A DNA stretch of 34,007 nt, from positions 1 to 34,007 of the forward strand of contig BBBF01000018.1 in assembly GCA_001315925.1 (NCBI GenBank). Reading direction: 5' to 3'. Under the pieces are notes generated by a model. That model was not told the origin of the DNA, searched no databases, and saw nothing but the letters and a program-made list of their open reading frames with translations. The position numbers were made by a program, and so were the translations under genes. Source of the stretch: Thermocladium modestius JCM 10088 (GTDB taxonomy: Archaea; Thermoproteota; Thermoprotei; Thermoproteales; Thermocladiaceae). This document shows positions 144 through 33,745 of the stretch, in pieces; position 1 is the first letter of the stretch; the number at the start of each line of letters is the position of its first letter.

Positions 144-221
144 TGGGCCCGGAGGGACTTGAACCCCCCCGACCAACAGGTCTGGAGCCTGCCGCTCTGA
201 ACCTTGCTGAGCTACGGGCCC
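144..221 (-). tRNA. tRNA-Trp (anticodon CCA)
   Basis: Read on the minus strand, the acceptor arm GGGCCCG (221-215) pairs with CGGGCCC (151-145), with discriminator A at 144. The anticodon arm is GCAGG-CTCCAGA-CCTGT, which puts CCA in the anticodon. The T-arm 3' half CCCTC follows a TTCAAGT loop. The 5' side of the T-stem is a run of seven G (C at 164-170 on the plus strand) where five would fold, so the arm carries two surplus bases. CCA is not encoded and I see no intron. A minus-strand TATA box lies at 244-258. Confidence 0.93.
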
Positions 222-18528: not shown

Positions 18529-18533
18529 GGTGA
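18527..18533 (+). promoter_or_regulatory. Ribosome binding site of rps17
   Basis: GAGGTGA lies five bases before the ATG at 18539 and overlaps the rps19 stop. It selects ATG 18539 over the upstream in-frame GTG at 18530. Confidence 0.65.
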
Positions 18534-18538
18534 GGCTG

Positions 18539-18994
18539 ATGGAGATAGTTACGAAGCAATTACAGGAACGCCCGAAGATAGGGGGGGATGTTATCTCCCT
18601 CCCCCCCAACGGGGGGGAGGAGGTGAGGGTGAGGTCGGTTGGGTTGCCTTGGTTGCTGCCGCCCAGGGTCGTGTGCAACGACCCAAAATGCCCCCCCTGG
18701 CATGGCCACACCAGCATTAGGGGGGAGGTGTTGAGGGGGGGAGTCGTGGACAGCGTTTACGGCAATCATGCAGTTGTAGTGCATGAGTGGCTCCACTACG
18801 TTCCCAAGTACAAGCGATATGAGAGGCGCAGGAAGAAGATACATGCTTACCTTCCCCCCCGTTGCGTGTCGGTCAAGGTGGGCGAGGAGGTCACTATAGG
18901 CGAGACGAGGCCGCTTTCTAAGGCCACTGCATTCGTTGTTCTTGGGACCTCCAAGGATACAACATCTATTAAGCCTAAAATGGAGAGCATCTAA
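18539..18994 (+). CDS. rps17: Ribosomal protein uS17
   Basis: Small-subunit protein. The archaeal core is visible: VVCNDPKCP then WHGHTSIRGEVL, VVDSVYGNHAVVVHEWLHY, VPKYKRYERRRKKIHAYLP, VSVKVGEEVTIGETRPLSKA and TAFVVLG. There is an N-terminal extension of about 40 residues before the core; I cannot say whether it is specific to this lineage. At least five G/C tracts interrupt the gene, and each adds one Gly or Pro without breaking the frame (for example CPPWHG where CPWHG is expected). It is translationally coupled to rps19. Confidence 0.93.
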   Translation: MEIVTKQLQERPKIGGDVISLPPNGGEEVRVRSVGLPWLLPPRVVCNDPKCPPWHGHTSIRGEVLRGGVVDSVYGNHAVVVHEWLHYVPKYKRYERRRKKIHAYLPPRCVSVKVGEEVTIGETRPLSKATAFVVLGTSKDTTSIKPKMESI

Positions 18995-27738: not shown

Positions 27739-28912
27739 ATGGATATAGCTCTGCTGGATGATTGTAGGGACAGGTTTGTGCCCATATCATACACCACGCC
27801 AACTCCCTTCCTGATAACGGGCGGTCTCAGGTTGGTGGAGCACTGGATGATAAGGCTCGGCAAGGGGGGGGTGGGGGGGCTTGACTTGGCCATGCAGCTG
27901 GACGAGGCCGAGCTTCATTTGAGCCGCAACGAGCTGCTGCTTAGCAAGTGGTGGGGGGGGTACGAGCCCCCCCGCCTCTCCCCCCCTAATTCATCTACAT
28001 CAATCTCCGCCTGCGTTCTCCCAACCAATGAGACCGTGGCTAAGGTCATGGAATACGTGGAGCGCGGCGCCAGGGTTGTTTGCGGCGGCGAGGAGTTGAT
28101 TCACGGGGGGGACGGCGAGGCCGTGGAGGACTGCTCGCTGCCTGTTCTCAGGGGGGGCGCCTGGGACTTGATTAAATTCAACCACGAATTGCTGCTGGAG
28201 ACGATACCGTTGCTGGGCAGGGGGGGCGACGTGGTTTCCGTGGACTCCAAGATACGCGATGCTCACTTGGACACATCAAGCGGGCCGATAGCCGTGATAG
28301 GGGGGGCTAATATAGTGAACCCGGTCAGCATCAAGGGGGGGCCTGCGCTGGTGGGACCTGATTGCGAGCTTCAATCGTTCACGTTACTGAGGCCGGGCTC
28401 GGTCTTGTACTGGGGGGGCAACGTGGTTGGAGGCGAAGTCAAGAACAGCGTATTGGATAAGGGAAGCAGGAAACCGCATCACGGCTACTTGGGCGACTCC
28501 TACCTGGGCAAGTGGATAAACCTGGGAGCCGGCACCTCCGTGTCCAACCTGAAGAACACGCTAGGCCATGTTAGGTTCATGGGCAGGGATACCGGCATGA
28601 GTAAGTTGGGCCCCCCATAATCGGGGGGGACTGGGTTCGCTCCGGCATCAACTCCAGCATAATGACGGGCAAGGCGGTGGGACCCGGCTCGCACGTATAT
28701 GGATTGGTGAGCATCGATGTGCCCCCCCCTTCGTCTTCTTCAAGAACTATGGGGGGGAACCCGTGATGAGCCAAGTGAATGCCGACAAGCTGGGAGAGAT
28801 AATTCGAAGATCGGCGGACGGAGATGAGAGGGAGGCGCGGTTGGCATCCATGGTCTACGAGGCGACGGGCAAGTTGAGGATCGGCATAGGTAAGTTCAAC
28901 TTCAAGCTGTGA
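27739..28912 (+). CDS. GlmU-like sugar-phosphate nucleotidyltransferase / acyltransferase
   Basis: The N-terminal domain begins MDIALLDDCRDRFVPISYTT, PTPFLITGGLRLVEHWMIRL, matching the GlmU_Nter/NTP_transf_4 type of sugar nucleotidyltransferase. The C-terminal half is a left-handed beta-helix (hexapeptide repeats), with VLDKGSRKPHHGYLGDSYLG, WINLGAGTSVSNLKNTLG, and, after a break near 28613, INSSIMTGKAVGPGSHVYG. It probably makes or acylates a nucleotide-activated (amino)sugar for glycosylation or the cell surface; substrate unknown. More than ten G/C tracts cross 27860-28430 without breaking the frame. About 390 residues. The start is decided by the TATA box. Confidence 0.8.
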
Positions 28913-33652: not shown

Positions 33653-33745
33653 GCGGGGGGGGTGCCCGAGCATGGTCAAAGGGGGCGGACTCAAGATCCG
33701 TTGGCGAAGGCCTGCGTGGGTTCAAGTCCCACCCCCCCCGCACCA
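33653..33745 (+). tRNA. tRNA-Leu (anticodon CAA)
   Basis: Class II tRNA with encoded CCA (33743-33745). Anticodon arm GCGGA-CTCAAGA-TCCGT gives CAA. A long variable arm (TGGCGAAGGCCTGC) precedes the T-arm GTGGG-TTCAAGT-CCCAC. The acceptor should be GCGGGGG/CCCCCGC, but both sides carry eight G or C instead of five (33655-33662 and 33732-33739). No intron. Confidence 0.94.

Follow-up and report, generated by a model that had tools for sequence, protein, structure and literature searches.

The gene for ribosomal protein uS17 (rps17) in the genome of Thermocladium modestius JCM 10088 raises a simple question. How can a gene contain a series of long G/C runs and still be read in a single frame? 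A sequence-only reading of this DNA had noted at least five such runs in rps17, each adding one codon, had described a GlmU-like gene as behaving in the same way and had considered the excess of three-base changes (+3) to be curious for a random error. The DNA analysed here is a stretch of 34,007 nucleotides, which we refer to as the window; the genome to which it belongs is referred to as G000. It is compared with two congeners, Thermocladium sp. UBA166 (G002), which is clean, and G001, which is more distant.

Tracts in rps17 and run lengths in the genome

The open reading frame of rps17 covers positions 18530-18994 on the forward strand, and the start that is homologous to that of the congeners is at 18539. 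Defined in this way (18539..18994), the gene is intact and aligns with its G002 and G001 counterparts in a single frame. It has six tracts of seven bases, namely G at 18581, C at 18601, G at 18611, C at 18691, G at 18735 and C at 18854, together with one run of six G at 18720. From the homologous start, the gene is 456 bases long vs. 438 in G002, and so the earlier count of in-frame runs is borne out, with six tracts and six extra codons in the alignment with the two congeners. Opposite the tracts at 18581 and 18691, both congeners have a run of 4. The alignment also has one gap of 6 that spans the tracts at 18601 and 18611, and gaps of 3 at 18735 and 18854; the flanks have diverged here, and it is our reading of the gaps that these four tracts would likewise have gone from 4 to 7. 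The G6 at 18720 has no alignment gap, and an A/G difference joins two runs there.

In the window, the G/C runs of lengths 4, 5, 6, 7, 8 and 9 number 69, 35, 19, 155, 50 and 0, respectively. The corresponding means in a first-order Markov simulation of the window (100 runs) are 318, 107, 36, 12.6, 4.0 and 1.4, and the 36.5 kb of G002 that are syntenic with the window have 264, 85, 29, 0, 0 and 0. The histogram of the window thus peaks at 7 and 8, and a hole is left at lengths 4-6. This is true for G and C only, and the A and T runs are ordinary. The same picture is present in a sample of G000 outside the window. Two sampled stretches (L038 and L039) are all N and uninformative. In a 682 kb sample of G000, G/C runs of 9 are absent, and there are one C10 and one C12.

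The lengthening can be followed run by run. Both genomes were homopolymer-compressed and aligned by BLAST, and the run lengths were then compared at matched columns. Alignments had to reach 80% identity and 300 bits, and only columns flanked on both sides by two matching ones were used; the wider comparison comprises 25,409 informative runs in 61 kb of aligned sequence. With this method, a substitution that merges two runs, such as the one at 18720, may pass for an insertion. Of the 205 coding G/C runs with a length of 4 in G002, 90 have a length of 7 in G000, 50 are still 4, 13 are 5, nine are 6, five are 8 and 38 are shorter. The 62 runs of 5 remain 5 in 11 cases and are 6 in 11, 7 in 15, 8 in 16 and shorter in nine. 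Among the 23 runs of 6, six are unchanged, one is 7, 14 are 8 and two are shorter. Runs of 3 are nearly unchanged (587 of 654 are still 3, and six are 7), and no A/T run reaches 7 in G000 at the columns matched to G002. Fourteen coding runs are 1-3 long in G002 and 7 or 8 in G000, and these are taken as having been at least 4 long in T. modestius. The mapping against G001 is similar, with more noise. The lengthening does not consist in adding three bases: from length 4 on, runs jump to 7 or 8. The prominence of +3 reflects the great predominance of runs of 4.

Many runs are left as they were, including the 50 coding runs of 4 mentioned above. Control by region or by flanking bases was considered, but the effects are weak and a clear cause was not found among them. 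Among runs of at least 4, the proportion with a length of 7 or more is 0.50-0.67 in the stretches that measure 7,788 bases or more and 0.80 in one stretch of 4,120 bases, and it varies from 0.52 to 0.71 with the flanking bases. Neighbouring runs no more than 300 bases apart are slightly alike (concordant, 1963 + 838; discordant, 1158 + 1144).

Genes, non-coding DNA and structural RNAs

The 16S rRNA is independent of gene calls, and its sites were counted where three relatives agree. Sixteen of the 26 runs of at least 4 are lengthened in G000 and one is shortened. Ten of the 18 runs of 4 are 7, seven are 4 and one is 3; four of the six runs of 5 are 7 and two are 5; the single runs of 6 and 7 are both 8. 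Among shorter G/C runs (n = 407), none is lengthened and one is shortened, and one of 303 A/T runs is changed (lengthened). The 16S match is 1,580 bases long in G000 (G000:C22:166-1745) and 1,506 in G001. No 23S rRNA match was found in the G000 assembly, with 10 of 19 candidates scored. As a separate observation, the 23S rRNA match in G001 (L143, G001:C19:14248-17864) is 3,617 bases long vs. 3,069 in G008, which suggests an insertion, e.g., an intron.

Both tRNA genes of the window, as predicted by ARAGORN, display the same lengthening. In tRNA-Leu (CAA; 33656..33741, forward strand), placed side by side with two copies from G001 and one from G002, the G run at 33655, on the 5' side, has 8 bases vs. 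5 in the relatives (+3), the C run at 33732, on the 3' side, has 8 vs. 6 (+2), and a third run, G5 at 33681, is the same as in the relatives. In tRNA-Trp (CCA; 144..221, reverse strand), there is a C7 at 164 (forward-strand letters) opposite a run of 5 in G002 (+2). A cause based on codons is impossible in rRNA and tRNA.

Most of the protein-coding genes in the window do not share the fate of rps17. The syntenic stretch of G002 has 31 ORFs of at least 300 bases, three of which have no match in the window. Among the 28 that were compared by tblastn, seven, including rps17, are intact, 19 are distributed over two or three frames and two are partial, matching a single frame over 90% and 9% of their length; the latter may not be a genuine gene. 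Contrary to what had been proposed, the GlmU-like gene (a name given in the sequence-only reading; 28036..28909, forward strand) is broken; the matches of its homologue in G002 fall into three frames of the window (1, 2 and 3). Its runs at 28220, 28335, 28412 and 28751 are 7 long vs. 4 in G002, and the run at 28611 is 6 vs. 4. The segment 28918-29123 is a dispersed repeat that has a 91% copy at G000:C32:5681-5896. Counting the segment itself, G000 has 12 matches to it, whereas G001 has 26 and G002 none; it is possibly a small mobile element.

Rps17 therefore stood out because it is among the seven of 28 genes left intact. This selection effect in what was noticed would favor the explanation that the tracts are ordinary random homopolymer indels and that the +3 pattern is only apparent. 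However, random indels would be expected to center on +1 or -1 and to affect A/T runs as well, whereas the observed runs go straight to lengths of 7 or 8 and the A/T runs at the 16S sites are almost all unchanged. Such indels are contradicted by the shape of the window histogram, with its hole at 4-6 and its two peaks, and we consider them a very unlikely cause.

Another explanation is that slippage in the cell expands G/C runs and that selection on the reading frame retains the +3 changes in genes. In agreement with this, +3 is the mode in genes. With coding DNA defined by a longest-ORF rule on G002, the 174 lengthened coding runs (G002 length at least 4) comprise 25 with +1, 38 with +2, 106 with +3 and five with +4. 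Furthermore, within the window +3 accounts for 10 of 12 lengthened runs in the intact genes vs. 59 of 101 in the split genes (p = 0.12), a comparison that includes 20 of the 21 genes that are not intact and omits the one with the 9% match; this higher share in the intact genes is suggestive only. However, the tally that the earlier reading had proposed, with coding and non-coding DNA counted separately, gives the same excess outside of genes, an outcome that this reading had itself named as refuting. The 13 lengthened non-coding runs comprise one with +1, four with +2, seven with +3 and one with +4, and the +3 share of 7/13 is indistinguishable from 106/174 (Fisher p = 0.77, with a small non-coding sample); the 16S rRNA adds +3 in 10 of its 16 lengthened runs. 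An excess of multiples of three that is confined to genes was hence not found in this tally. The share of runs affected is also alike (141 of 241 coding and 11 of 18 non-coding), and 68 of the 174 coding changes are not multiples of three and disrupt the frame. Slippage should also yield a continuous spread of lengths, and this is at odds with the lack of G/C runs of 9 noted above. The coding/non-coding comparison, together with the rRNA and tRNA runs, leads us to reject reading-frame selection, and we give this explanation only a minimal chance of being correct. The earlier reading was right that the pattern is not random error and that +3 is the commonest change, but a link to the reading frame, if one was intended, is not supported.

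Other genomes and the most probable cause

The signature is not limited to T. modestius. Runs of exactly seven G were counted per strand in 41 genomes (G000 and relatives) and number 4190/3768 in G000, 2522/2281 in G021 and 2031/1826 in G022. These are the only genomes with more than 1,000 such runs among 398 genomes of the phylum, the next having 185/155. The congeners of G000 have 20/23 and 63/56. G021 and G022 are from a genus other than that of G000, and the counts per strand are 0-3 in 10 further genomes sampled from it. The signature thus occurs in two genera, and the remaining sampled genomes of both lack it. Contingency loci are known to include poly-G/C tracts near this length, and this resemblance could indicate phase-variable tracts that toggle genes on and off, but such loci would be expected in particular, usually non-core, genes and with ragged lengths, whereas G000 has thousands of tracts against the few dozen per strand of its congeners, they are present in rps17, 16S rRNA and tRNA and they are only 7 or 8 long, so that the probability of this explanation is negligible.

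Sampled stretches of G021 (L079) and G022 (L080) have the G/C hole at 4-6 and the peak at 7, and the rRNA of both genomes obeys the rule found in G000. The 11 runs of 4 in the 16S rRNA of G021 are 7 in five cases, 5 in three and unchanged in three. The 15 runs of 4 in the 23S rRNA of G022 are 7 in nine cases, 8 in one, 5 in two, unchanged in two and shorter in one, and none of 330 A/T runs in this 23S rRNA is changed. When the G021 16S runs (L086) are separated by base, the C runs of 4 are all 5 (3/3), and the G runs are 7 in five of eight cases and unchanged in three of eight. This asymmetry is not seen in the 16S rRNA of G000, and it may help to identify the technical step. The listed completeness of G000 is 47.56 at 1.92 Mb, and that of both G021 and G022 is 67. 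Completeness is also low in genomes without the tracts (G023, 63; G024, 54; G015, 67), and low completeness is not by itself diagnostic of the artefact.

From these comparisons of sequence, the tracts are almost certainly a base-specific, length-dependent sequencing or assembly error in the T. modestius assembly. The lengthening is confined to homopolymers with a fixed base and length dependence (G/C runs of at least 4, with shorter runs and A/T runs nearly unchanged), and it is indifferent to function, as genes, intergenic DNA, rRNA and tRNA are all affected. A G/C run of at least 4 in a relative is often written as 7 (from 4), as 7 or 8 (from 5) or as 8 (from 6 or 7), regardless of whether the site is in a gene, an intergenic region, an rRNA or a tRNA. 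A gene in which all of the affected runs were 4 long gains whole Gly or Pro codons and its frame stays open, as in rps17, and genes that also have +1, +2 or +4 changes lose their frame. The responsible step may be a homopolymer-length call, either in base-calling or in the consensus, with a threshold of 4 and a ceiling near 8. The artefact may be project-specific. Very probably, the extra codons are not biology; it is equally our strong expectation that the lengthened tracts in rps17 are technical and have no bearing on uS17.

Published surveys and known homopolymer errors

G000 represents its species in a standard collection, yet the artefact breaks many of its genes, and the frameshifted genes of G021 and G022 merit the same caution. 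Thermocladium modestius JCM 10088 has been reported to be among the archaea richest in potential G-quadruplexes, with 7.381 per kb at 53.14% GC (PMC7565180). For a 36% sample of G000 (51.64% GC), we obtained a G4Hunter density of 6.54 per kb, which drops to 3.72 per kb when runs of 7 or 8 are counted as 4 or 5. However, the clean congener G002 has 6.01 per kb at 54.39% GC, and because of this high value, at a higher GC content, the artefact would explain no more than some of the richness.

Other published observations resemble ours. Interspersed GnNiGn repeats, up to several hundred, have been described by a second G-quadruplex survey in T. modestius JCM 10088, Methanogenium cariaci JCM 10550 and Thermogymnomonas acidicola JCM 13583 (PMC8044849); the available text sets them aside, as they have only two G-runs, without discussing error. 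They are like the tracts described here in having long G runs in many places and in distant archaea; they differ in that the authors' n > 7 was not reproduced in our analysis. The T. modestius assembly used in that study is probably the assembly of the window. Likewise, two Thermoproteales genomes, one of them Vulcanisaeta souniana JCM 11219, are described in another study as having many split proteins, and the authors suspect assembly fragmentation (PMC11237513). Broken genes in the same archaeal order are what we see as well, and our guess is that G021 or G022 could be V. souniana JCM 11219 and that its splits could be due to run-length errors. We think it fairly likely that a single error mode without a name so far, in which G/C runs of at least 4 are written as 7 or 8, corrupted a batch of archaeal type-strain genomes, other phyla included, and that the published G-quadruplex density, GnNiGn repeats, gene fission and low completeness come partly from it. 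A run-length histogram would flag such assemblies ahead of G-quadruplex, gene fission and pseudogene surveys.

A literature search, with partial coverage, did not find a paper on this error mode or on the sequencing of the strain. Homopolymer-length errors are known from flow-based and long-read sequencing and from run-length consensus callers. The error described here resembles them in that it affects only homopolymers, is base-specific and causes frameshifts and low completeness. However, the known errors are mostly of one base and often shorten runs, whereas the runs in T. modestius jump by two or three bases, to 7 or 8.
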